A stretch of DNA of 64,000 bases from Jiella mangrovi (GTDB taxonomy: Bacteria; Pseudomonadota; Alphaproteobacteria; Rhizobiales; Rhizobiaceae): positions 1 to 64,000 of the forward strand of contig NZ_JAGJCF010000019.1 of the NCBI RefSeq assembly GCF_017815135.1, in the 5' to 3' direction. Both the position numbers and the translations under genes were made by a program. This document shows positions 3,088 through 52,757 of this stretch, piece after piece (within the stretch, counting starts at the first letter, position 1; every line of letters starts with the position of its first letter). The notes under the pieces are model-generated. The model had not been told where the DNA came from. It made no database searches and was given only the letters and a program-made list of their open reading frames with translations.

Positions 3088-3958
3088 GATGCGCTCCCCC
3101 TCGACATTGACGCACGAAAAAACAGTGCAGGCGCATCGCAGCTGACGCGGCGACACCGCCAAGCTGAAATCCCAAACGCCGCCGCAAACAGGCGCCGTTG
3201 CCTTGTCATGGAGCAGATGCCCTTCGGCTCCCGCGCTCCGTCTCTCGAACCGGCCCAAAGGGCATGGACGATCCGCGCGGATCATCCATCCGCGGTTTTG
3301 GATCTTCCCGGTCAATCGTCCTGCAGGGACGCAGTGAAACCTCGATCACTGCGAGTCACTTGCTTGTTGTTGCAATGGGGGAAAATTACGAATGGTCAAT
3401 CCGAGAAGTAAAGTGCCAATTCCGCCACAATTTCCGAATTCATTCAAAACGGCAGTTGCGTCACTTGGCCATGAAATCGCGAAGCGGCGGGAACTATTGG
3501 GAAATTGCTGTTCCCTCGGTGGTTCGGGGGCGAATGCTTTGCTCGCAATTAGCGCCCATTCTGATCTCTTGCTGTTCTGCTGGTCGGTGCGGTTCATTGG
3601 CCGAGCCGATCGGCCGCAATGGAGAGCGCGCGTCGTCATGCCAAGAGAAATTTCAGTTTCGCGACCATCGCGGAGGTCGCACTGAATGGCGTCCGGTCGG
3701 GTCTGATTGCGAGGGGCCGTGCTTATGGCGCAAGATCGCAAGGACGATCGCTGCGAACTGGCTTCGCGCGCGCTGTCTTTCGATGAGCAATGCCTCACCG
3801 AGGTGAAATGTAGCGACCGGTCTGATCTGCGCTTCCCGTCCGCAGGCGTTCCCGCGGCTGAAAAGCTTTGATGCGCGAGCTGTCAGGGCCCGGTCTGGAT
3901 GAGCAGACGATCCCTGCCCGTGGATTGCATCGATCATTCACGGGCGCATCTGGACCTC

Positions 3959-3974
3959 GTTGACAGCTGCCAAC
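3959..3974. promoter_or_regulatory. parS-like centromere site 1
   Basis: GTTGACAGCTGCCAAC fits the published repABC parS consensus GTTNNNNGCNNNNAAC at every fixed position. With one more base on each side it is an 18-bp palindrome with a single mismatch. It would be the binding site of the RepB protein encoded at 5428-6579. Confidence 0.72.
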
Positions 3975-4108
3975 GAGCCCATGGGCGAGCGCCCATCCTG
4001 CGCGCTCTTGGGTAACTCGGGCCTGCGCGCGGATCGGGACGATGTGCCGCGAGCCTCTCTTCGTCGCGGCGGGCGCGGTTGCGTTGCATCAGACGCGATG
4101 CTGTTGGC

Positions 4109-4124
4109 GTTGGCAGCTGTCAAC
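4109..4124. promoter_or_regulatory. parS-like centromere site 2
   Basis: GTTGGCAGCTGTCAAC is the exact reverse complement of the site at 3959-3974, and the identity extends one base on each side to CGTTGGCAGCTGTCAACG. The two copies are 150 bp apart in opposite orientation in non-coding DNA next to the replication genes, which makes chance unlikely. Confidence 0.72.
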
Positions 4125-4226
4125 GGCCGACAGGGACACGCGCCTTTCGGACAAGCGCCCTCACTCGGTTGGTCCATGACCGTCGGTTTTTGCATCAGTG
4201 CTGTGGGTCGCAGTTCCTGAGAAGCC

Positions 4227-5195
4227 TTATCCGCTTCTTTTGCCCCAAATGCCGCCCGGTCTCTCCCGGCCAAATCTATCCTGCAAGAGAGAATCTTGAT
4301 GGAATTGGTTGTTGGATGACAGAGGTGTCATACCCTGCAAACGCCGGTCCGGCGGCGTTGCTCGGGTCATGCCGGGCAGCGCTGCGTGCGATGGTGCGAG
4401 GGCGGCGGAGCGCCCGGCCCGGCTCGTCGCGGCGAAGGGCTCGAACGGGATGGTCTGGCGCTCCGGCGCCTCGGAGAGCCAGGCGGCGAGGCCGGAATGA
4501 TCGGCGAAGAAGGGAAGCACCTTGTCGGTCAGCGTGATGACGAGACCGGTGTGAAATCCCCTCGCCGTCTTGCGGATGCGCGAGGCGATGTAGCCGAAGC
4601 GTTCGAGGTCGATCAGATAACGGCGGATGGTGCGTGAGGAGCGATGCATGGTCGCCGCCAGCGTCGCCTTGGCGGCAGCCGTCACCCGGCCCTTGCCGCA
4701 GCGCGCGCGCAGGACCACGAGCAGCGCCTTGGCGCCAGGCGTCAGCCGGTCGTCGCGCATCGCGGTCGTGGCGATCGCATTGGCATATTGCCGCGAGGCC
4801 CGCGGCGCCGGACGGAGGGCTCTCGGCCGCGCGGCTGGCGGATGAGCCAGGCCTTTCGCCTTGCCTGCAACCGGCGACAATGCAGCTGCGACCGTATCGA
4901 GACCGGCACCGATCTCGCGCGAGCGCCGTTCGGCTTCGCTCAGCGAGATCGCTCCGGCATGAAATTCCCGCCAGATCGCCGCTCTGGCGGTGAAGATCGG
5001 TGAGGGTGCCTGGCACGCCGACTCTTCATCAGCAGCGCAGTCGTCCGCCGGATGCGTCGGCCCATCATAGCCGGACCCGCCGTTGCCGGTTTCGGCCGAC
5101 GCCGTCATCTGGGCATGAGTGATCGCTGGCCCGAACGCCGCTTCGCGGTCGAGCCCCCTGCGTGCGCCGGGCGCACGCCATCCTTGTTCCGTCAC
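4227..5195 (-). CDS. Plasmid replication initiator-like helix-turn-helix protein (in the repC position)
   Basis: The product is about 322 residues. The GTG at 5195 is taken as start because AAGGAAG lies six bases before it; an upstream TTG at 5219 is possible. The N-terminal 130 residues are Ala/Arg/Pro-rich and look disordered. The central part (LTPGAKALLVVLRARCGKG, then TMHRSSRTIRRYLIDLERFGY) is a winged helix-turn-helix of the type found in plasmid replication proteins, with the pattern of a gene-end DNA-binding domain. It follows repA and repB in the same direction, exactly where repC stands in repABC replicons, but I do not recognise the RepC sequence in it. The initiator role is therefore inferred from position and domain. 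The likely antisense RNA at 5287-5343 lies in its leader. An alternative is a plasmid transcriptional regulator. Confidence 0.62.
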   Translation of the reverse strand: MTEQGWRAPGARRGLDREAAFGPAITHAQMTASAETGNGGSGYDGPTHPADDCAADEESACQAPSPIFTARAAIWREFHAGAISLSEAERRSREIGAGLDTVAAALSPVAGKAKGLAHPPAARPRALRPAPRASRQYANAIATTAMRDDRLTPGAKALLVVLRARCGKGRVTAAAKATLAATMHRSSRTIRRYLIDLERFGYIASRIRKTARGFHTGLVITLTDKVLPFFADHSGLAAWLSEAPERQTIPFEPFAATSRAGRSAALAPSHAALPGMTRATPPDRRLQGMTPLSSNNQFHQDSLLQDRFGRERPGGIWGKRSG

Positions 5196-5286
5196 GTGTC
5201 GCTTCCTTGCGCGAGGCAAACCGGACCCGTGGCGGGAAACCGCAGTGATGCTTGACGAGTGAGTCGGAAGGGCCTAGATCGAAAGG

Positions 5287-5343
5287 TGTCTAGTCTTTGA
5301 GATCAGGTCCTGTTGCGGCTCCCGCTTCGGGGCCTTTTCTTTT
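5287..5343 (+). ncRNA. Candidate counter-transcribed RNA (incompatibility RNA)
   Basis: The plus strand between repB and the initiator, antisense to the rep genes, has TTGACG at 5252-5257, a 17-base spacer and TAGATC at 5275-5280. About 57 bases after the expected transcription start is a terminator: stem 5317-5323 with 5329-5334 (one bulged T), loop GCTTC, then TTTTCTTTT at 5335-5343. A short antisense RNA of this size, place and orientation is the standard negative regulator of repC in repABC plasmids. The promoter -10 box is weak, and the RNA itself is an inference. Confidence 0.55.
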
Positions 5344-5427
5344 GCCGGTTTCGCGTCTCCGTTTGCTGCCGCATCGTGCCCCGCGCGACCCTGAGGCCGC
5401 CGGGGCGGTGAAACTCGTTCGGCCGGT

Positions 5428-6579
5428 TCAGGCCGGTGGGTCGCTTTCGGCTTCGGCCTCCTGCGCCTTGAAGGCGCGGTAGAGGTCGGGCAGCCTTGCT
5501 GCGACGAAATCCGAAAAGGCGGCGCCGTCGCCGGTCTGAAAGGCGAGCGATGGGCGCGCGCGCGGGCCGGTCTTGACCAGCGCCAGCACTGCCCCGTCTT
5601 CGCTCTTCACGGTCTTTTCGCCGGCGGGCTTCCGCCCCTTGGCGCCGCGCTGCATGTGCTTGTAGAGCGCGGCAAACCGTTCGTCGGAATCTGCCAGCGA
5701 CTGGAATTCGCCGCTATGGACGAACTCCAGCGCGTGCTCCTTGCCCGGCATGTCTGCCAGCGTCTCGCCGATCTCGCCCCAACGGGGGCGCCCGGCCTTG
5801 GGCGCCGGGCCGACCGCCCGGGCAATCGCGTGGGGGATGCGCTCGGCCACCTGCAGGAGCCTCGTCAGCTCGGACTTGTCGATCCCGAGCGCCGACTGCA
5901 TCGTCTCGCGGGAGAAGCCGCGCGCTTCCAGCCCCTTGGCGAAGAACGCCCGCTCGATGAAGCTGAGATCGCGCCGCTCGGCGTTCTCCCGCCCTTGCGC
6001 CAGCACCAGTTCGTCGTCGGACAAAGGGCGGATGATCGCCCGGACCTTCAGCCCGAGATCGCGCGCCGCCCGAACCCGGCGATGGCCATAGGCGGTCTCG
6101 AACAGACCCTCTTCCGCCTTGGCCGGGTCGCAATGGGGGCGAAGCAGCACCGGCACGCTCTGGCCGTCGGCCGCGATCGAGGCTTTCAGCCCGGCAAAGC
6201 CGGGATCGAGCTCGCCGGCCCGCGACAGCCGGTCGACCACCGGCGAGGGCAGGATCATCTGCGGATCGACGAGGATCACATGGCCGCCGCTCATCGCCTC
6301 CTCACGCAGTTGCCTTGCCGCATCCGCCTGTTTCTGCAGCTCGCCCCAGGACGCCCGCATGGCGTTGATCGCGCCGGAGCGGGCGTGGTCGCGCGCCGGG
6401 GCAGGAGAGGGTGCAGGCGAGGGGTTTTGCGCAGCACCCGGCATGGCGGGCCCTGCTCCGGACGCCCCGTCCGCTTCGGTGCCGGGCAGAGCCGGGATAT
6501 CGCCGTCCTTCGCCGTGTGATCGCCGGCCTTGGCGTCCCCCGACAGAAGCGCGCGCAGCGCATCCTTGCGTTTCACCAT
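5428..6579 (-). CDS. repB: Plasmid partitioning protein RepB (ParB family)
   Basis: The product is 383 residues and is the centromere-binding partition protein. The N-terminal stretch MVKRKDALRALL is typical of RepB. The ParB/Srx fold follows at about residues 95-190, with ILVDPQMILPSPVVDR and the arginine motif YGHRRVRAA used for CTP and DNA contacts. A helix-turn-helix (SRETMQSALGIDKSELTRLLQVAERIP) and a C-terminal RepB domain follow. The ATG at 6579 is preceded by a strong AAGGAGGG site. A 226-bp gap with a terminator separates it from repA, unlike many repABC operons where the genes nearly touch. Its likely targets are the two parS-like palindromes at 3959 and 4109. Overlong N- and C-terminal tails are Ala/Glu-rich. 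Confidence 0.9.
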   Translation of the reverse strand: MVKRKDALRALLSGDAKAGDHTAKDGDIPALPGTEADGASGAGPAMPGAAQNPSPAPSPAPARDHARSGAINAMRASWGELQKQADAARQLREEAMSGGHVILVDPQMILPSPVVDRLSRAGELDPGFAGLKASIAADGQSVPVLLRPHCDPAKAEEGLFETAYGHRRVRAARDLGLKVRAIIRPLSDDELVLAQGRENAERRDLSFIERAFFAKGLEARGFSRETMQSALGIDKSELTRLLQVAERIPHAIARAVGPAPKAGRPRWGEIGETLADMPGKEHALEFVHSGEFQSLADSDERFAALYKHMQRGAKGRKPAGEKTVKSEDGAVLALVKTGPRARPSLAFQTGDGAAFSDFVAARLPDLYRAFKAQEAEAESDPPA

Positions 6580-6670
6580 TGCGAGCCCTCCTTGGCCTTG
6601 CCCGTCCGCTGCGCCGACGGCCCCATGCCGCGGCGCGCCCGGCATGATGGCCCCGGGCGAAGGGGGTGGG

Positions 6671-6804
6671 GATAAGTTTTTGCCGATCGCGCCTTTCGAC
6701 CGGCCGTTTCCGGCACCGAAAAACCGCCGCAAGCGATTGCGGCGGCTGGCGTTTTACAAGCGCCGGAGGCGAGGGAGGCGAGGCCTGCCGAAGAAAAACT
6801 TATC
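6671..6804. repeat. 11-bp inverted repeat flanking the repA-repB gap
   Basis: GATAAGTTTTT at 6671-6681 and its exact reverse complement at 6794-6804 stand 112 bp apart, one directly after the repA stop and one 91 bp before the repB start. They bracket the terminator hairpin at 6719-6746. Their function is unknown; they could be protein-binding sites or a device that pairs in the RNA. Confidence 0.5.
6719..6746 (-). terminator. Rho-independent terminator between repA and repB
   Basis: Read on the minus strand, CCGCCGCAA, loop TCGC, TTGCGGCGG form a perfect 9-bp stem (6746-6725) followed by six T (6724-6719). This would end or attenuate transcription after repA. Confidence 0.75.
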
Positions 6805-6805
6805 A

Positions 6806-8101
6806 TCATTTCTGCCGCCCCCAGGCCGCGCGAATCAGTTCCTCGACTTCGCCATTGACCGCCTGGAGCGACTCCATCGCGCGGTCGTAGGTTCCGCGGG
6901 TGAAGTTCTCGCGGCCGACCTCGTAGAGCGTCTGCTTGGTGAGGCCGGCATCGGAGATCGCCGTCGATTTCAGCATCGCGTTGGTCAGCACCCGGTCGCC
7001 GAACTGGGCGCGCAGAAAGCCGGCGATCTGGGCCTGTGGCCCGTCATGGGGCTCGTAGCGGGTGACGAGATAGCGCAGGAAGTCGAAGCCGAGTTCGGCC
7101 CCCGATTCGCGCACCACCGCCAGAAGATCGGCGGTCATGAACAGGAACTGGCTCATCGAGGCGACGTCGAGCATCTGCGGATGGACCGTGACGACGACCG
7201 AGGTCGCCGCGCAGAGCGCGCCGAGGGTGAGAAAGCCAAGCTGTGGCGGGCAGTCGATCACGACGACGTCGAAATCGGCCTCGACTTCCGCGATCACCGC
7301 GCCGATCCGCGCAAAGAAGGGCAGATCTTCGGCCGTCCCCCGCTCGGCGAGCTGGCGCGGCGTCGTGTGCTCGAATTCCTGGAGTTCCAGATTGCCGGGC
7401 ACCAGCGACAGGCCGTCGAAATAGGTCGGGCGCAGGATCTCTGCGAGCGGACGGCGCATCTCGTCGTAGCGGATCGCGCCGTAAAGCGTGTCGTTGCCCG
7501 AAAGATCGAGCTCGGGCTGATAGCCCAGAAGCGCGGAAAACGAGGCCTGCGGATCGAGATCGATGGCCAGCGTCCGGTAGCCCTCAAGCGCCAGATATTG
7601 CGCCAGATGGGCCGAGGTGGTGGTCTTGCCGGAGCCGCCCTTGAAATTGGTGACGGCCAGGATCTGCAGATGTTCGCCGGGCTCGCGCCATTTGAGATAC
7701 TGTCGCGCCTTGGGGCTGCCCTTCTCGTGCTGGGCGGCGAGATAGGCGCGAAGGGCGTTGATCGTCTCGAGGCGGTAGGAGCGCCGCCCGCCGGCGCCGG
7801 TTTCGGGCTGCGGGCCCTCGCCGGAGATCGACAGCTGGCGCAGATAGCCGTCCGAAACGCCGATCAGCTTGGCCGCTTCGCCTGAGGTGAAGGGGCGCAG
7901 CGCCTTCTTGGCCGATGGCGGAAACAGCCGCTCGCGCATCTGGGAAAGCTGCGCCGACAACAGCTCCGCGTCGCGCGCGATCGCCTCGTCGGCCGGACCG
8001 ATCGCTGCAGGAGTCGCTCCCTTTGCCGCTTTTGCCACCTTTTGCGTCTCTTCCCTCGTTCGGCCCGCCACGTCGGCGGGGCCGGTCTCGTCACTCGTCA
8101 T
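6806..8101 (-). CDS. repA: Plasmid partitioning protein RepA (ParA ATPase)
   Basis: The product is 431 residues. It is the partition ATPase that moves plasmid copies and usually represses its own operon. A MerR-like helix-turn-helix at about 70-115 (FTSGEAAKLIGVSDGYLRQL) precedes the ParA domain. The deviant Walker A motif KGGSGKTT is at about residues 154-161, with LAIDLDPQAS and VVIDCPPQLGFLTL as the A' and Walker B motifs. This is the long RepA form of repABC replicons. The ATG at 8101 has a GAGAAAGG site eight bases upstream. It is the first gene of the rep block; the terminator beyond it suggests that repB and the initiator may be expressed at a different level. Confidence 0.92.
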   Translation of the reverse strand: MTSDETGPADVAGRTREETQKVAKAAKGATPAAIGPADEAIARDAELLSAQLSQMRERLFPPSAKKALRPFTSGEAAKLIGVSDGYLRQLSISGEGPQPETGAGGRRSYRLETINALRAYLAAQHEKGSPKARQYLKWREPGEHLQILAVTNFKGGSGKTTTSAHLAQYLALEGYRTLAIDLDPQASFSALLGYQPELDLSGNDTLYGAIRYDEMRRPLAEILRPTYFDGLSLVPGNLELQEFEHTTPRQLAERGTAEDLPFFARIGAVIAEVEADFDVVVIDCPPQLGFLTLGALCAATSVVVTVHPQMLDVASMSQFLFMTADLLAVVRESGAELGFDFLRYLVTRYEPHDGPQAQIAGFLRAQFGDRVLTNAMLKSTAISDAGLTKQTLYEVGRENFTRGTYDRAMESLQAVNGEVEELIRAAWGRQK

Positions 8102-8528
8102 GGCAAGCGCCTTTCTCGTCCTCTCCCGTCGAAGCCGGCCATGGTCGGCCGGGTGGGCGGGGGCTCCATCGTCGAGCCCGGCCTCGGCGCGAGTCGCGGC
8201 AAGACGGGTGACACCCTGCCGGCGATCGCCCGGAACGACGTTCGACCAACAGAGCTGCGGGCTTCGACTTTTGTTACGCCCTGAAGATGGATCGACGCTT
8301 GTTTTCCGTAAATGGGACGATGGTCAAGCCGGTGAGTCGAGTCAAGCGGCAGGACAAGCGGCGCAATCCTCGCGCAAGCTTGTGCCGGGCGCAACTTGCT
8401 CCTGTCGGGCATCGAGCGGGTGCTGCAAGCCGGGCAGGCGAGGGCCGGGACAAGTCAGGGAAAACCGGGGTCAGCGGCAGGAGCCGGTCGCGATAACAGC
8501 TCCGCACGGCCCGCTCGCCGGCGGTGCC
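8102..8528. other. Upstream region of repA
   Basis: These 427 bases between repA and the marR gene contain no credible gene. The DNA at about 8265-8330 is less GC-rich than the rest and probably holds the repA promoter, but no convincing pair of -35 and -10 boxes was found. No parS-like palindrome is present here. Confidence 0.4.
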
Positions 8529-8996
8529 TTACCCCTCGCGCTCCGCGGGAGGGGGAGGCGGCGGGATGAACGCGGACAATTCGGCCATTGGGCCGGAGAG
8601 CTGCGCAAGCACGTCTTCGGGAAGCTTCGCGAGGATCGCCTGATAGCTTCGCAGGGTGACGGCCGGAAACTCCTCGAGCAGGGCAAACCCTTTCGGCGTC
8701 AGGGTCAAACGTTTCTGCCGGCGATCCTCCGGGTTCTCGGCCCGGTCGAGAAGGCCGGCCTTGACGAGCCGATCGACCAGACGACTTGCCGCCGTGTGGG
8801 TCAATTCCACTTCCTTGGCGATCGCAGCGACGCTTTGCGGCCCTTCGATACGAATCCTGAACATCGCCACGAGATGCTGGAAGGAAATGTCCTGGCCTTT
8901 CAGGAACCGTGCCATGTGCGGGAAAACGTGAGACATCACCGCCCCGTGCAGGTGATGAAACGCATTCACGATTTCGCAATGGCCGGGGTGTGACAT
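8529..8996 (-). CDS. MarR-family transcriptional regulator
   Basis: The product is 155 residues, the usual MarR length. The winged helix is at about 45-110: QSVAAIAKEVELTHTAASRLVDRLVKAGLLDRAENPEDRRQKRLTLT pattern, with the recognition helix THTAASRLVDRL and the wing DRRQKRL. The C-terminus ends in a run of prolines. An AAGGAAG site precedes the ATG at 8996. It is divergent from the efflux genes that start at 9094, and the gap holds two palindromes, so it is very likely the local repressor of that pump and of itself. The ligand is not predictable. Confidence 0.9.
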   Translation of the reverse strand: MSHPGHCEIVNAFHHLHGAVMSHVFPHMARFLKGQDISFQHLVAMFRIRIEGPQSVAAIAKEVELTHTAASRLVDRLVKAGLLDRAENPEDRRQKRLTLTPKGFALLEEFPAVTLRSYQAILAKLPEDVLAQLSGPMAELSAFIPPPPPPAEREG

Positions 8997-9006
8997 TCTT
9001 TCTTCC

Positions 9007-9031
9007 TTGCATGAGATGCAATGATGCATCA
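9007..9031. promoter_or_regulatory. Palindromic operator candidates for the MarR regulator
   Basis: TTGCATGAGATGCAA (9007-9021) is a perfect 6-bp inverted repeat with a three-base centre. It is followed directly by the 10-bp palindrome TGATGCATCA (9022-9031). Both share the core ATGCA and lie between the divergent marR gene and the efflux operon. The left one overlaps the marR leader. Confidence 0.6.
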
Positions 9032-9093
9032 AATGAGCGCTCGTCGTCGCCGCGTCAAGCCGGCGGCTGCAACCGCGCATGGAGAAGAGCTGC

Positions 9094-10566
9094 ATGAGAC
9101 GACCCCAGCTAGAAACGGGTGCGAAACCCGCTCCGTTTCGTCGCATTGCTCCGCTTGCCGCGCTCGTGATCGTCCTTGCAGCTTTGGGCGCCTGTTCCGA
9201 CAGCGGCGGCTCCGAAGGCTCGGGCGGCTCTGCCGCAAAGGGCGCAGGCGGCGCGCCTGGCGGACAAGCCGGGCCCACCAAGGTCGGCGTCGTCACCGTC
9301 GAGCCGCAGCCGGTGACCATCACCGCAAATGTCGCTGGACGCGTGGTCTCCTTCCAGACGGCGCAGGTGCGTCCGCAGGTCGGCGGACTGATCACCGAGC
9401 GGCTGTTCGAACAGGGCACCAAGGTCGAGAAGGGCCAGGTCCTCTACAAGCTGGACGATCGCTCCTACAAGGCCGAGGTGGATTCGGCGAAGGCGACGCT
9501 GGAAAAGAACCAGGCGGCCCTGACCACGGCGCAGCTGCAATATCAGCGCTATCAGGATCTGGGAAAGAACGACGTCATCAGCCAGTCCGACCGCGATTCC
9601 GCGCGCTCGACCTATCTTCAGGCCAAGGCCGACGTGGCGGTGGCGCAGGCTGCGCTCGAGACCGCCCAGCTCAATTTGAACTACACCTCCATCGAGGCGC
9701 CGATCACCGGACGCGTCGGCACCGATCCGACCGAGCCCGGCAATCTCGTCACCGCCGACCAGACCGACGCGCTCGCGACGATCCGCCAGATCGATCCGGT
9801 CTATGTCGATTTCACCGAATCCTCCGGCAATCTGATGAAGTTCCGCGACCAGATCCGTCGCGGCGGGGTGAAGGCGCTGGTCGGGCCCGAAAATCCGGGC
9901 AAGGCCGTCGTCAAGATCCAGTTCGCCGACGGCTCGTCCTATCCCGAGACGGGGACGATCGACGCGGCCGATCAGTATGTCTCCGAGACGACCTCGAGCT
10001 TCACGGTGCGCACGCGCTTTCCCAATCCCGAAAACGTCCTGCTGCCGGGCATGTATGTGCGCGGCACCATCCGCCTTGCGGTCGACGAGAACGGCTTCCT
10101 GCTGCCGCAGCGCGCGGTCTCGCGCAATGCCAAGGGCGAGCCGACGGCGATGTTCGTCAAGGAGGACGGCACGGTCGAGACGCGGGTGCTCGAAATCTCG
10201 ACCGACATCGGCAATCAGTGGTGGGTGACCAAGGGCGTTGAGAAGGGCGACAAGCTGATCGTCGACGGGCTGCAGAAGATCCGCGACGGCGCCAAGGTCA
10301 CGCCCGTCGCCGTGACCGTCAATGACGACGGCCTCGTCGAGCAGGCCTCGGACCAGGACCAGTCGCCGGCCTCGGCAAAGGGCGGGGCGGACGACGGCAA
10401 GGCGACGTCCGCCGAAACTGCGAAAGCGAGCGACGGCGATCAGGCGACGACGTCCCAGGCGACACAGACGAAGGCGGGGCAGGCCACCGCCGCCGAACAG
10501 AAGCCGGAAGCGGCATCCGGTGGTGGCGACAAGAGCGCAGGCACCGCCAACGGCGGCGGGGAGTAG
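9094..10566 (+). CDS. RND efflux periplasmic adaptor (membrane fusion lipoprotein)
   Basis: The product is 490 residues and links the inner-membrane RND pump to an outer-membrane channel. The start at 9094 is chosen for GGAGAAGAG just before it. The signal peptide ends in the lipobox LGAC, so the mature protein should be lipid-anchored at Cys. The barrel-sandwich hybrid (VAGRVVSFQTAQVRPQVGGLI ... EKGQVLYKLDDRSYK pattern), a helical hairpin and a beta-barrel domain follow in the AcrA/MexA order. The last 70 or so residues are a Gln/Ala/Asp/Gly-rich tail that most adaptors lack. Six bases separate it from the pump gene. No outer-membrane channel gene is nearby, so a channel from elsewhere must serve. 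Confidence 0.92.
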   Translation: MRRPQLETGAKPAPFRRIAPLAALVIVLAALGACSDSGGSEGSGGSAAKGAGGAPGGQAGPTKVGVVTVEPQPVTITANVAGRVVSFQTAQVRPQVGGLITERLFEQGTKVEKGQVLYKLDDRSYKAEVDSAKATLEKNQAALTTAQLQYQRYQDLGKNDVISQSDRDSARSTYLQAKADVAVAQAALETAQLNLNYTSIEAPITGRVGTDPTEPGNLVTADQTDALATIRQIDPVYVDFTESSGNLMKFRDQIRRGGVKALVGPENPGKAVVKIQFADGSSYPETGTIDAADQYVSETTSSFTVRTRFPNPENVLLPGMYVRGTIRLAVDENGFLLPQRAVSRNAKGEPTAMFVKEDGTVETRVLEISTDIGNQWWVTKGVEKGDKLIVDGLQKIRDGAKVTPVAVTVNDDGLVEQASDQDQSPASAKGGADDGKATSAETAKASDGDQATTSQATQTKAGQATAAEQKPEAASGGGDKSAGTANGGGE

Positions 10567-10572
10567 GCGCTG

Positions 10573-13500
10573 ATGGCCAGCTTCTTCATCCACCGCCCGG
10601 TCTTTGCCTGGGTCATCGCCATCGGCATCATGCTGTTCGGCACGCTGGCGCTCTACCAGCTGCCGATCGCCCAGTATCCGGACGTCGCGCCGCCGTCCGT
10701 GTCGATCTCCGCGACCTATCCGGGGGCGAGCGCCGAGACCGTCGAGAACTCGGTGACCAAGGTCATCGAGCAGAACATGACCGGTCTCGACAATCTGATC
10801 TACATGTCGTCCTCCTCGACCAATTCGGGCCAGGCGACGATCACGCTGACCTTTGCGACCGGGACCGACGCGGACATCGCCCAGGTGCAGGCGCAGAACA
10901 AGCTCTCGGAGGTCGAGGCCCAGCTTCCCGAGGCGGTCCAGAGCCAGGGCGTTACCGTCACCAAGTCGTCTTCGGGCATTCTCATGGTCGCGGCCCTGAC
11001 GTCGACCAACCGGAACTACACCTCGACCGACCTTGCCGACATCATCTCCACCAATCTGGAAGATCCGGTGCGCCGGGTCGAAGGCGTCGGCGATCTCAAC
11101 GTCTTCGGTTCCGGCTATGCGATGCGCATCTGGCTCGATCCGGCCAAGCTCGCCGAGTTCCAGCTGACGCCGGCGGACGTCACCAGTGCGGTCGAGGCCC
11201 AGAACACTCAGGTCTCGGTCGGCCAGCTCGGCGCGCTGCCGCAGACCTCCACCGCCCAGATGAACTTCACGGTGACGTCGCAGTCGCAGCTCGAGACGCC
11301 CGCGCAGTTCCGCTCGATCATCCTGAAGACCGAAAGCGACGGCTCGCTCGTCACTCTCGGCGACGTCGCGCGGGTCGAGATCGGCGCCGAGAGCTATAAT
11401 TCCTCGGCCCGCTACAACGGCTATCCGGCGGCCGGTTTCGGCGTCAATCTCGCCTCCGGCGCCAATGCCATCGACACCGCCGAAGGCGTGCGTGCCGCCC
11501 TCGACAACCTCAAATCGACGCTGCCTGCCGACGTTTCGATCGTCTATCCCTACGATACGACGCCCTTCGTCGAGCTCTCCATCGAGAAGGTCTATCACAC
11601 GCTGTTCGAGGCGATCGCCCTCGTCTTCGTGGTAATGCTGGTCTTCCTCCAGAACTTCCGGGCGACGCTGATCCCGATGATCGCCGTGCCCGTCGTCCTA
11701 CTCGGCACCTTCGGCGTCCTGTCCGTCGCCGGCTACTCGATCAACACGCTGACGATGTTCGCCATGGTGCTGGCCATCGGCCTCCTCGTCGATGACGCCA
11801 TCGTCGTCGTTGAGAACGTCGAGCGGGTGATGACGGAGGAGGGGCTTTCGCCGCTGGAGGCGACGGAAAAGTCGATGCAGGAGATCACTGGCGCGCTGGT
11901 CGGCATCGCGCTGGTGCTTTCGGCGGTGTTCCTGCCGATGGCGTTTTTCGGCGGTTCGGTCGGCGTGATCTACCAGCAGTTCTCGATCACCATCGTCTCG
12001 GCGATGCTGCTCTCCGTCCTGGTGGCGATCGTGCTCACCCCGGCGCTCTGCGCCACGATCCTGAAACCCACCCACGGCAAGCGCAAGAATTTCTTCTTTC
12101 GCGGCTTCAACAGCGGCTTCTCGAAGCTGACCAACGGCTATGTCGGCGGGGTCGGGACCTTCTCGCGGCGGCCGCTGCCGCTCCTCGTCGTCTTCGTCCT
12201 GATCTGCGGCGGCGCCTGGTACGTGTTTTCGAGCCTTTCGAGCTCCTTCCTGCCGGAAGAGGACCAGGGCGTCCTGATGACCATGATCCAGCTGCCGCCC
12301 GGCGCCACCAACGAGCGCACCAAGGAAGTGGTGCAGCAGGTCGAGCAATATTATCTCGACAAGGAAAAGGCCAACGTCGCCAGCGTCTTCGCCGCGCTCG
12401 GCTTCTCCTTTTCCGGCTCGGGGCAGAACAACGCCCTCGTCTTCGTCAAGCTGAAGGATTTCGACGATCGCACCGCCGCTTCCGCCGCCGCCAGCGCGAT
12501 CGCGGGCCGGGCGATGGGGGCGTTCTCGCAGATCCGCGACGCGACGGTGATCGCGCTGTCGCCGCCGGCCATTCGCGGCCTCGGCACCGCCGGGGGTTTC
12601 GACATGTATCTGAGGGATACGGGCGGGGTTGGCTACGACAAGCTCGAGGCGGCGACGGGCCAGCTGATCGCCGAGGCCAATTCCGACTCCCAGCTGTCCG
12701 CCGTGCGCCGCAGCGGCCAGTCGCAGCAGCCGCAGTTCAAGATCGACATCGACGATCGCCTCGCCGGAGCGCTTGGTGTCAGCGTTTCCGACATCAACAC
12801 GACGCTCTCGACCGCCTGGGCCGGCAGCTACGTCAACGACTTCCTCAACAAGGACCGCGTCAAGAAGGTCTATGTCCAGGCCGATGCGCCCTTCCGCATG
12901 ACGCCGAACGACATCAATCGCTGGTATGTTCGCAACGATTCCGGCGAGATGGTGCCGTTCTCGGCCTTCACCAAGACGAGCTGGACCAAAGGGGCGCCGC
13001 AGCGCCAGCGCTACAACGGCATCTCGGCGGTCGAGATTCAGGGCTCCCCGGCCGAAGGGCTGAGCTCCGGTCAGGCGATGAACCGGATGCAGGAACTCGT
13101 CTCCAAGCTCGATGGCGGCTTCACCGTCGCCTGGACCGGCCAGTCCTATCAGGAGCGGCTGTCGGGCTCGCAGTCGACGTCGCTCTACGCGATCTCGATT
13201 GTCGTCGTCTTCCTCTGCCTCGCCGCGCTCTACGAGAGCTGGTCGATCCCCTTCTCGGTCATCCTCGTCTTGCCCGTCGGCGTCTTCGGCGCGGTGCTGG
13301 CGGCCTATCTGACCGGCCAGGACAACGACATCTACTTCAAGGTCGGGCTTTTGACGACGATGGGGCTCGCGGCCAAGAACGCCATCCTGATCGTCGAATT
13401 CGCCCAGGACCTCAGGAAGGAAGGCCAGAAGCTGATCGAGGCGACGCTGCACGCCGCGCGCATGCGCCTGCGGCCGATCCTGATGACGTCCTTCGCCTTC

Positions 13501-13716
13501 ATCCTCGGCGTCACGCCGCTCGCCATCGCGACGGGCGCGGGCTCGGGCGCCCAGCGGGCGATCGGCATCGGCGTCATGGGCGGCATGATCGCGGCGACGG
13601 TGCTCGGCGTGTTCTTCGTGCCGCTGTTCTACGTCCTGGTGATGAGCGTCACCGAATGGGTCCGCAGCCGCCGCGGCAAGGGCCGGCAGCAGCATGAGGT
13701 CGCACCGGCGGAATGA
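10573..13716 (+). CDS. RND multidrug efflux transporter (HAE1 family, AcrB/MexB-like)
   Basis: The product is 1047 residues, the normal size for the drug-exporting HAE1 branch. It begins [17 protein letters not shown], a family hallmark, then has a large periplasmic loop, transmembrane block 2-7 with the proton-relay pattern [20 protein letters not shown] (two Asp), a second periplasmic loop and the last block with [14 protein letters not shown]. Two inverted structural halves are evident. It would expel hydrophobic or amphiphilic compounds using the proton gradient, together with the adaptor before it. Substrates cannot be told from sequence. Expression is probably released when the divergent MarR protein binds ligand. 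Confidence 0.95.
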
Positions 13717-17377: not shown

Positions 17378-18250
17378 TCAAGCCCCCAGCGCCAGAAACC
17401 GCGCCATCATCCGCTCCCGGTCGGCCTCGAGCCCGGTGAAGTGCTGAAACGACCGCACCGCCTGGCCGACGGCCATGCCGGCGCCGCCCATCGCCCGGCA
17501 GCCCGCCGCCCTGGCCGCCTTTACCAATGCCGTCTCCAGCGGAAAATAGTTCACGTCGGCGACGAACATATCCCGGTTCAGCCGCTCGACGGGGTAGGGG
17601 ACGCCCGGCCGCTTGTCGGTGCCGATGGGGGTGGCGTTGACGATACCGTCATAGCTGCCCTCGACATCATGGACGAGGCGGATGCGATCCGCGCCGAAAC
17701 GCGCGGCGGCGGCGGCGACGAGGCTTTCGGCCCGCAGCCGGTCGATATCGAAGACGCAGAGTTCCTCGACGCCGTTCTCGAGAAGGGCGAAGGCGACCGC
17801 CATCCCCGCGCCGCCGGCGCCGATCTGCAGGACGCGCCGTCGCTTCGCCCCGGCCATCTCCTCGGCGAAGCTGTCGGAAAAGCCGCCGAGATCGGTGTTG
17901 TGGCCGATGCGCTTTCCGTTCTGGAACACGATCGTGTTGACAGCTCCCAACGCCTCGGCCTCGGGGCCGAGTTCGTCGAGATGCTCGGTCACGGCGATCT
18001 TGTAGGGATAGGTGATGTTGAGCCCGGCATAGCCGGTCAGCTCCATCGCCTTCAGGAGATCGGGCAGAGGCGGCGGGCTCGCCATCGTGCCGGTGTCGAA
18101 CAGCCGGTAGACGGTGCGAAAACCGTGTCCCTCGCCGGCGGCCTCCTGCATCGCCGGCGTCCGCGACAGAGCGATGCCCTGGCCGATCAGGCCGAGGGTG
18201 AGGGTTTTCGGGGTGCCGAGGGCGGAGGAGACGATAAGGTCGGAGTTCAT
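17378..18250 (-). CDS. Shikimate/quinate dehydrogenase (AroE-like, probably NAD-dependent)
   Basis: The product is 290 residues. It has the AroE catalytic Lys (NITYPYK, about K84) and Asp (GHNTDLGGF, about D120), GAVNTI, and the nucleotide motif IGAGGAGMAVA at about 143-152. The strand after it reads VFDIDRLRAE; acidic residues there, in place of the NRT motif of biosynthetic AroE, favour NAD over NADP. That is what catabolic quinate/shikimate dehydrogenases show. It would oxidise shikimate (or quinate) to the substrate of the QuiC dehydratase downstream. Repeat copy B begins only eight bases before the start codon, and no ribosome site is visible. An alternative is a second biosynthetic AroE, which the context makes less likely. 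Confidence 0.85.
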   Translation of the reverse strand: MNSDLIVSSALGTPKTLTLGLIGQGIALSRTPAMQEAAGEGHGFRTVYRLFDTGTMASPPPLPDLLKAMELTGYAGLNITYPYKIAVTEHLDELGPEAEALGAVNTIVFQNGKRIGHNTDLGGFSDSFAEEMAGAKRRRVLQIGAGGAGMAVAFALLENGVEELCVFDIDRLRAESLVAAAAARFGADRIRLVHDVEGSYDGIVNATPIGTDKRPGVPYPVERLNRDMFVADVNYFPLETALVKAARAAGCRAMGGAGMAVGQAVRSFQHFTGLEADRERMMARFLALGA

Positions 18251-18257
18251 GTTCGGC

Positions 18258-18453
18258 GACCCCCCTCTGCCCTCCTGAGCGTTTGTCGAAGGGCGGACAT
18301 CTCCCCCACAAGGGGGGAGATCGGCGGTTTTGCACACTGGTTCTCGAACCGTCTGCGCCGCGCAAGTTCAAACGTCGGAGATTGGCCGCTGCGTCCATGC
18401 AGAGTCGATCTCCCCCCCTGTGGGGGAGATGCCCGGTAGGGCAGAGGGGGGCG
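18258..18453. repeat. Inverted-repeat element, copy B
   Basis: This shares the ends CCCCCCTCTGCC and ATCTCCCCC-ACAA-GGGGGGAGATC with copies A and C, in the gap between tctA and the dehydrogenase gene. It is 196 bp long with a spacer that does not match the others. It sits against the start of the dehydrogenase gene. Confidence 0.8.
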
Positions 18454-29154: not shown

Positions 29155-30048
29155 TCACAGATCGACATATTTGCGCCAGTTGTGCTCTTCCCTGAAGCCG
29201 AGAACCTTGCGGATCTTGGCGTTGGACAGCGGCGCCTCGTATTCGCCGAGTTCGCGGGTCACGGGGATCTGCGGGCAGTGTTTGTTCAGGAATTCGGCCG
29301 TCGGCATCGTCGCGGTGATGGTGTCGTTGGTGGCGTTGAACACCTCGAAGCCGAGGCCGTCCCTGGCGATGGCGAGATCCACCATCTGGCCGAGATCGCG
29401 CGCGTCGATATAGCTCCAGGCATTGCGCTTGCGCGACATCGGATCGGCGACGAAGTCCTTGAACCGATCATATTCGTGCGGCTCGATGACATTGCCGATC
29501 CGGAAGGCATAGATGTCGGCGCCCGATCGCATGGCAAAGGCGCGGGCGGTCTTCTCGTTCGCCACCTTGGACAGGCCGTAGCTGTCCATCGGGTCGATGT
29601 CGTAGTCCTCCTCCAGCGGGAAGTGGTGGAAATCCTTGTCGCCCTCGGCGAAGCAGACGCCATAGGTCGTCTCCGACGAGGCGATGATGATCTTGCGGAT
29701 GCCGAGCTTCACCGCCGCCTCGATGACGTTGTAGGTGCCGATCGTGTTGATCCGGAAGGTCTCGTTGTCCGGCCTGATCAAAACCCGCGGGATCGCGGCG
29801 AAATGAACGACCGCGTCGATCGGAGCGGGGCCTTCGCCGGTGGCGAACTCGTCCGTGTTGAAATGGCAGGAGAGCGCGTTGAACATCTGGCCGCTGTCGG
29901 TGACGTCGGCGGTGAGGTTATCGACGCCCTCATGGTCGAGCGGCACGAGATCGACGTTGAGAACGCGGTGTCCCCTGTCGACGAGATAGGGGACGACGTG
30001 GCGCCCGGCCTTGCCGGTGCCGCCGGTGAAGACGATGCGTTTGCCCAT
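29155..30048 (-). CDS. NAD-dependent epimerase/dehydratase family protein (extended SDR)
   Basis: The product is 297 residues. The Rossmann motif is VFTGGTGKAGRHVVPYL at the N-terminus, the active-site Ser is in IIASSETTYG and the Tyr/Lys pair in DSYGLSKVANEK. WSYIDARDLGQMVDLAI is the usual C-terminal signature. These features make it an extended short-chain dehydrogenase acting on a sugar or sugar-like alcohol; the exact reaction is not evident. It ends 30 bp from the secretion gene, tail to tail, and is followed upstream by a fumarylpyruvate hydrolase-like gene on the same strand. Confidence 0.85.
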   Translation of the reverse strand: MGKRIVFTGGTGKAGRHVVPYLVDRGHRVLNVDLVPLDHEGVDNLTADVTDSGQMFNALSCHFNTDEFATGEGPAPIDAVVHFAAIPRVLIRPDNETFRINTIGTYNVIEAAVKLGIRKIIIASSETTYGVCFAEGDKDFHHFPLEEDYDIDPMDSYGLSKVANEKTARAFAMRSGADIYAFRIGNVIEPHEYDRFKDFVADPMSRKRNAWSYIDARDLGQMVDLAIARDGLGFEVFNATNDTITATMPTAEFLNKHCPQIPVTRELGEYEAPLSNAKIRKVLGFREEHNWRKYVDL

Positions 30049-30201: not shown

Positions 30202-30885
30202 TCAGGAGACCGTGACGGTCAGATCGCCGACGCCGTCGATATGGCCCTGGAGGCTGTCGCCCCTCTCCACCGGGCCAACGCCCGCCGGCGTCCCGGTCAT
30301 GATGACGTCGCCTGCGGAAAGCGTGAAGAGGCCGGAGAGATAGGAGATCGCCTCGGCGGTTTTCCAGATCATCTGGTTGAGATCGCCCTCCTGCCGGATC
30401 TCGCCATTGACCTTGAGCCAGATCGCGCCTTCGGCGGGGTGGCCGATCTTGGCGGCTGGAACCACCGCCGAGACCGGCGCGGACTTCTCGAAGGCTTTGC
30501 CGATCTCCCAGGGGCGGCCCATCTTCTTGGCGACGGACTGGAGATCGCGGCGGGTCATGTCGAGGCCGACGGCATAGCCGAAGACATGGTCGAGCGCGTT
30601 CTCAGCCGCGATGTCGGCCCCGCCGTTTCCCAGACACACGACCAGCTCGATCTCGTGATGAACGTCCGATGTCCGCCCCGGATAGGGGAAGGTGCTCTCC
30701 GTGGTCAGGTTGTCGGGGTTCTTCTGGAAGAAGAACGGCGGCTCCCGGTCCGGATCATGGCCCATCTCGATGGCATGGTCGGCATAGTTGCGCCCGACGC
30801 AATAGACCCGCCGCACCGGGAAGGTCGCGTCCGTGCCGCGCACCGCGAGGGCGGGAACGGGCGCTGGCGTGAAGACGTATGACAT
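30202..30885 (-). CDS. Fumarylacetoacetate hydrolase-family protein (fumarylpyruvate hydrolase-like)
   Basis: The product is 227 residues, the length of small FAH proteins such as NagK/FAHD1. It carries RRVYCVGRNYADHAIEMGHD, PPFFFQKNPDNL, the metal-binding HHEIELVVCLG pattern and VGLDMTRRDLQ, then GDVIMTGTPAGVGPVERGD. Such enzymes cleave C-C bonds in beta-diketo acids such as fumarylpyruvate or act as oxaloacetate decarboxylases. The window has no gentisate dioxygenase, so the substrate remains open. The gap to the epimerase-like gene is 153 bp and without clear features. Confidence 0.85.
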   Translation of the reverse strand: MSYVFTPAPVPALAVRGTDATFPVRRVYCVGRNYADHAIEMGHDPDREPPFFFQKNPDNLTTESTFPYPGRTSDVHHEIELVVCLGNGGADIAAENALDHVFGYAVGLDMTRRDLQSVAKKMGRPWEIGKAFEKSAPVSAVVPAAKIGHPAEGAIWLKVNGEIRQEGDLNQMIWKTAEAISYLSGLFTLSAGDVIMTGTPAGVGPVERGDSLQGHIDGVGDLTVTVS

Positions 30886-51743: not shown

Positions 51744-52757
51744 ATGCTGGAAAAATTCGAGCGCTATCCCCTGACATTCGGGCCGAGCCCGATCGAGCAT
51801 CTGCCGCGCCTCAGCCAGGCGATCGGCGGCAAGATCGACGTCTATGCCAAGCGCGACGACTGCAATTCCGGCCTTGCCTTTGGCGGCAACAAGCTGCGCA
51901 AGCTCGAATACATCGTGCCCGACATTCTCGCCTCGGGGGCCGACACGCTGGTTTCCATCGGTGGCGTCCAGTCCAACCACACGCGCATGGTCGCGGCGAC
52001 GGCGGCCAAGCTCGGGCTGAAATGTGTGGTCGTCCAGGAAAAATGGGTCCCCCATTACGACGCCGTCTACGACCGGGTCGGCAATATCCTGCTGACGCGC
52101 CTGATGGGCGCGGACTCCCGCCTCGTCGAAGACGAGTTCGACATCGGCATCCGGCAAAGCTGGGAAAACGCGCTGCAATCGGTTCGCGATGCCGGCGGCA
52201 AGCCCTATGGCATTCCAGCCGGCGCCTCCGTCCACAAATATGGCGGTCTCGGCTATGTCGGCTTTGCCGAGGAAGTGCGCGCCCAGGAAGCCGAGCTCGG
52301 CTTCAAGTTCGACTATGTGGTCGTCTGCGTCGTCACCGGCTCGACCTTCGGCGGCATGGTCGTGGGCTTTGCCGCAGATGGTCGCGCCGACAAGGTGATC
52401 GGCATCGACGCGTCGGGAACGCCCCATCAGACCCGTGCGCAGGTGCGCCAGATCGTCGACAACACCGCCGAGCTGGTCGAACTCGGCCGCAAGGTCGAGG
52501 ACGCCGAGATCGTCATCAATCCCGATTACGCCTATCCCGCCTATGGCGTGCCCAGCGAAGAGACCAACGACGCAATCCGCCTTGCCGCCCGCACCGAGGC
52601 GATGATGACCGATCCGGTCTATGAGGGAAAATCCATGCAGGGCATGATCGACCTGGCGAGGAAGGGCTTCTTTCCCGAGGGCTCGAAGGTCCTCTATGCC
52701 CATCTCGGCGGCGCCCCGGCGCTCAACGGCTACAGCTATTACTACAAGGACGGTTGA
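51744..52757 (+). CDS. acdS: 1-aminocyclopropane-1-carboxylate (ACC) deaminase
   Basis: The product is 337 residues, the normal length. It converts ACC, the plant ethylene precursor, to 2-oxobutyrate and ammonia with PLP. The PLP lysine is in [10 protein letters not shown] (about K50), and [16 protein letters not shown] is the conserved loop. The residues that separate true ACC deaminase from D-cysteine desulfhydrase are present: Glu in [10 protein letters not shown] (about 294) and Leu in [17 protein letters not shown] (about 321). The gene is divergent from acdR. It points to life with plants, where the enzyme lowers plant ethylene and supplies nitrogen. No terminator is evident; the next gene starts 280 bp on. 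Confidence 0.95.

Follow-up and report, generated by a model that had tools for sequence, protein, structure and literature searches.

Some 4 kb into the 64,000-nucleotide stretch of Jiella mangrovi DNA analysed here (the window), two near-palindromic sequences (sites A and B) lie downstream of a set of replication genes (Table 1). A sequence-only reading had taken them for the parS sites of a repABC-like replicon. Which protein do these sites serve, and what kind of replicon do they belong to? The positions given in that reading were right, and both sites match all eight fixed positions of the consensus GTTNNNNGCNNNNAAC. They likewise conform to a stricter consensus, GTTNNCNGCNGNNAAC, cited in PMC9040568, and to that paper's rule for repABC parS, namely a GTTNNNNGCNNNNAAC match with at most one palindrome break. 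Each is one base off the perfect palindrome GTTGACAGCTGTCAAC, and neither is itself perfect. The 18-nt arms are 100% complementary, confirming that the sites are exact reverse complements over 18 bp; the reported distance of 150 bp holds between the starts of the 16-mers, with 132 nt separating the arms. Site B lies 102 bp downstream of the stop codon of the nearest gene. The interval between the sites had been called non-coding and probably is, given that the downstream DNA outside the site is poorly conserved in relatives, although chance ORFs cross it.

Table 1. Coordinates of features of the replication region and of further parS consensus matches in the window
Feature	Position	Strand	Remarks
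parS-like site A	3959-3974	+	GTTGACAGCTGCCAAC; one palindrome break; 18-nt arm 3958-3975
parS-like site B	4109-4124	+	GTTGGCAGCTGTCAAC; reverse complement of site A; 18-nt arm 4108-4125
Candidate replication initiator, winged-helix (HTH_36-like)	4227-5219	-	330 aa; repC position; not RepC by the models tried
Candidate antisense RNA, ctRNA-like	5252-5345	+	repB-initiator gap, strand opposite the gene
-35-like TTGACG	5252-5257	+	followed by a 17-nt spacer and 5275-5280; hexamers read by eye
ctRNA_p42d (RF00489) model match	5300-5345	+	23 bits; gathering score 50
Terminator-like hairpin	5317-5334	+	GGCTCCCGCTTCGGGGCC
repB, ParB-type centromere-binding protein of repABC type	5428-6732	-	TIGR03454, 319 bits (cut-off 201.5)
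repA, ParA-type partition ATPase of repABC type	6806-8101	-	TIGR03453, 622.9 bits (cut-off 348.45)
Possible third, degenerate parS	17936-17951	+	GTTGACAGCTCCCAAC; strict match; two palindrome breaks; uncertain
Fourth strict consensus match	29326-29341		four palindrome breaks

The description of the replicon as repABC-like was borne out for two genes and failed for the third. RepA and RepB score far above the curated repABC equivalog cut-offs, and repA, repB, the gene for a 330-aa protein, site B and site A follow one another leftward on the minus strand. The 330-aa protein, however, is not RepC. At E 0.001 it matches nothing in NCBIfam, and no RepC model recognises it. PF03428 found RepC nowhere in the genome; in a control search it was positive in all six genomes with RepC loci and negative in all three with the new gene, the window's included. 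Likewise, NF040974 matched 7 of 7 RepC proteins but none of 26 members of the 330-aa winged-helix family, and hhalign of this family against a RepC alignment gave a probability of 8% over 27 columns. None of the models tried assigned the third gene to RepC. As judged from its sequence, the gene in the repC position encodes a winged-helix protein that is either unrelated to RepC or diverged from it beyond recognition, and the replicon is best described as repAB plus a non-RepC initiator candidate rather than as repABC. Two initiator families were sought elsewhere in the genome, PF01051 and PF10134; they occur on contigs C24 and C20 only, and neither on C9, the contig that holds the window. The C20 gene is of the RPA type (PF10134) and the C24 gene of the Rep_3 type (PF01051).

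The 330-aa protein belongs to an uncharacterised family, annotated only as "helix-turn-helix domain-containing protein". Its single Pfam match, HTH_36, is below threshold. The phage family phrog_270 (replication initiation protein) gave a weak match in nine of the ten family members scanned (best E 5e-7), and a sequence search of the PDB with the candidate returned nothing significant (best E 0.28). An AF2 model (mean pLDDT 65) shows a confident winged helix with low-confidence ends; fold searches with this model retrieved generic winged helices only, mostly MarR-like. Since the N-terminal domain of RepC is also MarR-like (PMC6090056), the two winged helices may be very remotely related. On the sequence evidence, replication is most likely started by this protein, not by RepC.

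A contig scan found the candidate at 43 loci, of which 37 are in Aureimonas, Jiella, Fulvimarina and Aurantimonas, all genera of the Aurantimonadaceae; the remaining six are distant (Maritalea and metagenome-assembled Hyphomicrobiaceae and Bradyrhizobiaceae). In 20 of the 43 the fetched DNA includes repB: 11 of these show the order repA-repB-initiator, whereas in the other nine, four of them nearly identical, the initiator gene diverges from repA. A single RepC query detected no RepC in the 20 repB-bearing loci. The gene thus occurs with repAB, in tandem or divergently, or without it. RepA and RepB are found beside it on pAU20b and pAU20c of Aureimonas sp. AU20 and on Jiella pelagia unnamed2. 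The plasmid pAU20g (complete, 28 kb) has the gene beside a ParA-like/ribbon-helix-helix pair, with neither repAB nor another initiator annotated; it also carries a primase/polymerase. Among 121 genomes drawn from the family, four have the initiator gene and 79 have RepB relatives, some of them weak.

The closest loci to that of the window are in Jiella avicenniae (L060), J. pacifica (L061) and J. sonneratiae (L062). All three have the same gene order, and the window's RepB is at best 70% identical to theirs (L061). Each has a perfect GTTGACAGCTGTCAAC downstream of the initiator stop codon, at a distance of 142 bp in L060, 147 bp in L061 and 139 bp in L062, and a second copy 0.5 to 2.2 kb further on; the second copy in L061 has one change and begins with ATT. 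The DNA around these elements is poorly conserved: in global alignment, the 300 nt downstream of the gene are only 53-61% identical among the four loci. When L062 is compared with L060 or L061, the palindrome and its flanks form the longest run of identical bases (19 bp). The longest stretches shared by the window with L060 or L061 are 12-bp half-sites (plus one other 12-mer in L061), and with L062 a half-site of 14 bp. Perfect 18-bp inverted arms 132 nt apart could also be the ends of a small insert, and the pair might on this account be an unrelated inverted repeat (mobile-element ends, a recombination site or a product of chance) that happens to fit the consensus. This is extremely unlikely, as the relatives have the same palindrome with other distances to the second site and other surrounding DNA, and the chance model described below speaks against it too.

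Contig C9 is 87,474 bp long and its ends overlap exactly by 127 bp, so that it most simply represents a closed circle of 87,347 bp; no terminal overlap was found for C10 and C17, the two other contigs with repAB loci. The circle was subjected to 400 dinucleotide shuffles, in which consensus sites with at most one palindrome break were counted. The shuffled sequences had a mean of 0.07 such sites; 28 of the 400 had at least one and none had two. In the real circle, sites A and B are the sole sites of that quality, both within 270 bp of the operon end, and the scatter of equal sites that would have spoken against the sequence-only reading is not seen. In the whole 4.93-Mb genome the consensus is matched at 48 places, only four of them with at most one palindrome break: sites A and B, one on C8 and one on C41. 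Sequences within two mismatches of GTTGACAGCTGTCAAC occur at four places genome-wide, three on C9 and one on C6. The window contains four strict matches, where chance would give 0.44 on average. The match at 17936 is one base off site A and lies inside a shikimate-dehydrogenase-like ORF (17378-18337, minus strand); it may be a weaker third site or have arisen by chance. Degenerate extra sites 15-20 kb from repC are described for Allorhizobium vitis and relatives (PMC9040568). The match at 29326 looks like background. The circle shows a strong cumulative GC skew, with a range exceeding that of 200 out of 200 block shuffles; as an origin marker it was rejected, the minimum (71,033) and the maximum (40,931) both lying far from the rep genes.

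The position and number of the sites also bear on what RepB would do there. The parS sites of repABC replicons are known to take part in operon repression, and a specialisation of individual sites has been argued (PMC9040568, PMC6090056); sites A and B could therefore be operator-like RepB targets, acting mainly in transcription or incompatibility with little part in partition. They lie downstream of the last gene, however, where they are unlikely to repress the operon promoter. The circle has no other good sites, which leaves no further centromere candidate of this type, the weak 17936 site aside. We regard a predominantly regulatory role as improbable.

Could the palindromes be bound by the winged-helix protein rather than by RepB? 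Palindromes are often bound by winged-helix proteins, and in the window and its three Jiella relatives they lie just downstream of the initiator gene, where they might form part of an origin or serve autoregulation. The distribution of the sites argues otherwise. Loci were compared for sites within 4 kb of the initiator candidate, repB-less loci being admitted only if 4 kb had been read on both sides; repeats of the same contigs were left out of the 19 repB-less loci, and pAU20c was counted with repB. By a wide rule, fixed partly after sites had been seen, 16 of 22 loci with repB have sites near the initiator, as against none of 19 without (Fisher p 7e-7). Restricted to the published rule, the comparison gives 7 of 22 loci with repB and 0 of 19 without it (Fisher p 0.0098); both p values are too small, because several loci are near-duplicates. 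Eight further repB-less loci, with less than 4 kb read around the gene, also have none, and no such site is present on the whole of pAU20g. Among loci with repB that the wide rule misses, L008, L078 and L082 have a site with an altered centre base and L070 a site in which both halves differ at two outer bases; in L063 and L079 no site was found within 4 kb of the initiator. On pAU20c, repAB spans the start of the circular record and CTTGGCAGCTGCCAAG occurs at 2281, inside repB, and at 2560, just after it; these copies were sought only after repAB had been found there.

Further evidence comes from loci fetched by RepB similarity. An identical GTTGACAGCTGTCAAC is present in nine of 29 such family loci (RepC itself was seen in six of the 29, the fetched stretches being short), and the initiator candidate has no match in the genomes of these nine, which ties the palindrome to repB. 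In three divergent loci (C17, L005 and L077) the sites are on the side of repB that faces away from the initiator. Moreover, RepB of the Paracoccus plasmid pAMI4 binds GTTGACAGCTGTCAAC in gel shifts (PMC9040568). Together these observations make it very unlikely that the palindromes are the initiator's own sites, and RepB remains their expected ligand.

The type of site also varies with RepB. Besides C9, the genome of J. mangrovi has repAB loci on C10 and C17, and each of the three loci has its own pair of distinct palindromes. The C17 pair consists of GGTGGCAGCTGCCACC at 30872 (one mismatch) and 30898, the C10 pair of CTTGTCAGCTGACAAG at 51954 and, with one mismatch, at 52240. No site type was found within one mismatch on the other two repAB contigs (for C10, 40 to 60 kb was scanned). 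The strict parS consensus would miss both the C10 and the C17 type. Elsewhere, CTTGGCAGCTGCCAAG is present in two copies in L077 and three in L089, GTTGTCAGCTGACAAC represents a further type, and ATTGTCAGCTGACAAT palindromes, which do not fit the published GTT...AAC consensus, accompany the rep operon of the RepC-type loci L037, L038 and L040. Several site types depart from that consensus at its fixed outer bases. On a RepB tree of 52 rows, 36 of them hand-labelled with nine site types, the types need nine changes (the minimum being eight), whereas 300 shuffles of the labels needed 20.6 on average and never fewer than 17. Site types track the RepB clades. Differences in type between coexisting replicons were seen in the window's genome, in J. 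pacifica, in two A. ureilytica strains and in F. endophytica; these are all of the genomes with two or more that were compared, too few to exclude chance. On the same tree, monophyly of the RepBs that accompany the new initiator was not rejected (AU p 0.119; two-state minimum two changes), so repeated swapping is hypothetical.

The recurrence of the palindrome and its place in relatives, its association with repB rather than the initiator, and the agreement of site type with RepB clade all favour the proposal that sites A and B are the centromere of this replicon. On this sequence-based evidence, they are very likely parS.

The gap between repB and the initiator gene contains a candidate antisense element with a conserved layout: a TTGACG hexamer, a spacer (17 nt in the window), a variable hairpin and the terminator GGCTCCCGCTTCGGGGCC. 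The window's match to ctRNA_p42d, below the gathering score, has an E value of 0.15 when 5.7 kb is searched and 0.0062 when the gap is searched. The model scores 31.7 bits on pAU20b (E 2.4e-5) and 20.8 bits on the RepC plasmid pAU20a, both likewise under the gathering score of 50. A promoter scan of positions 3300-9000 found no promoter, and terminator-like sites are no commoner in this interval than in shuffled sequences (six as against a mean of 4.9), so that the case for the element rests on conservation. Of the 56 listed initiator or RepC genes (repeats included), 32 are preceded by an exact copy of a 17-base core. Since the gene of pAU20g, on which no repAB is annotated, is among them, the ctRNA-like element appears to travel with the initiator. 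RNAalifold, applied to 23 of 34 distinct fragments, detected no covarying pairs in the ctRNA stem and recovered only the near-invariant terminator; single-sequence folds of the 5' part gave z < -1 in 19 of 34, a modest signal obtained with mononucleotide shuffles.

Taken as a whole, the data make it highly probable that sites A and B are the parS pair of an 87.3-kb low-copy plasmid with RepAB partition, a winged-helix initiator and antisense-limited expression; RepB binding, partition function, low copy number, initiator function and antisense control are parts of this account that we infer. RepB dimers would bind each 16-bp near-palindrome and, together with the RepA ATPase, move sister plasmids apart, with the two sites acting as the centromere. 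Initiation would most likely fall to the winged-helix protein whose gene separates repB from the sites, and a small antisense RNA from the repB-initiator gap probably limits its expression. A broader proposal appears somewhat more probable than its converse: that the Aurantimonadaceae have an undescribed class of replicons combining RepAB-parS with a non-RepC winged-helix initiator that keeps ctRNA-like control, that the initiator-ctRNA unit has been swapped between partition modules, and that the replicons coexist by virtue of their own palindrome types, some of them outside the consensus (GGTGGCAGCTGCCACC, CTTGTCAGCTGACAAG, CTTGGCAGCTGCCAAG).

The nearest described counterpart of the sites is in pAMI4, a repABC megaplasmid of Paracoccus aminophilus, whose parS_BC is GTTGACAGCTGTCAAC and which has several sites and RepA/RepB partition (PMC9040568). 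Unlike the window, where RepC was not found and both sites come after the initiator candidate, pAMI4 encodes RepC, with one site in the repB-repC interval and the 3parS locus at a distance (PMC9040568). RepA and RepB of the repABC models and the parS consensus are features shared with the repABC replicons of Rhizobiales and Rhodobacterales, and the candidate ctRNA-like element before the third gene may be another; the window differs from them in that no RepC was found. In the window and its three Jiella relatives the sites follow the last gene, which is the arrangement that PMC9040568 gives for Rhodobacterales, here in a family of another order. Other plasmids with the new initiator are arranged differently: pAU20b has GTTGTCATCTGACAAC inside repB, pAU20c has a divergent gene order with its sites in and after repB, and Jiella pelagia unnamed2, also divergent, has GGTGGCAGCTGCCACC beyond repB.

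As to the initiator, RepQ, RepY and RepW of the Rhodobacterales provide a precedent for new replicase types beside the RepABC class (PMC9025767). These are set apart by their description: they are on small plasmids, and in the portion of PMC9025767 available none is paired with RepAB of repABC. Some replicons in the account of PMC9040568 lack repC, so that repAB without RepC has been seen before. Full-text searches of PMC, which leaves out most subscription literature, turned up no account of repAB paired with this winged-helix initiator. The sites add a new instance to a familiar class of site, and the replicon is an apparently undescribed variant.

That the sites should be parS is ordinary; what is unusual for this partition system is the gene that likely copies the plasmid. 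A much-studied family of alphaproteobacterial plasmids appears able to change its initiator while keeping its partition genes, centromere and antisense layout. If so, such replicons escape plasmid typing based on RepC, and several of their centromeres escape the strict GTT...AAC rule. With three repAB loci, each with a site type of its own, a single genome offers a natural test of how divergence of RepB and parS avoids incompatibility. On the far side of repA, the replication genes are adjoined by genes for an HlyD-type membrane-fusion protein and an AcrB-type RND transporter (8529-13716), and the ORF at 8529-9422 beside them appears MarR-like by eye.
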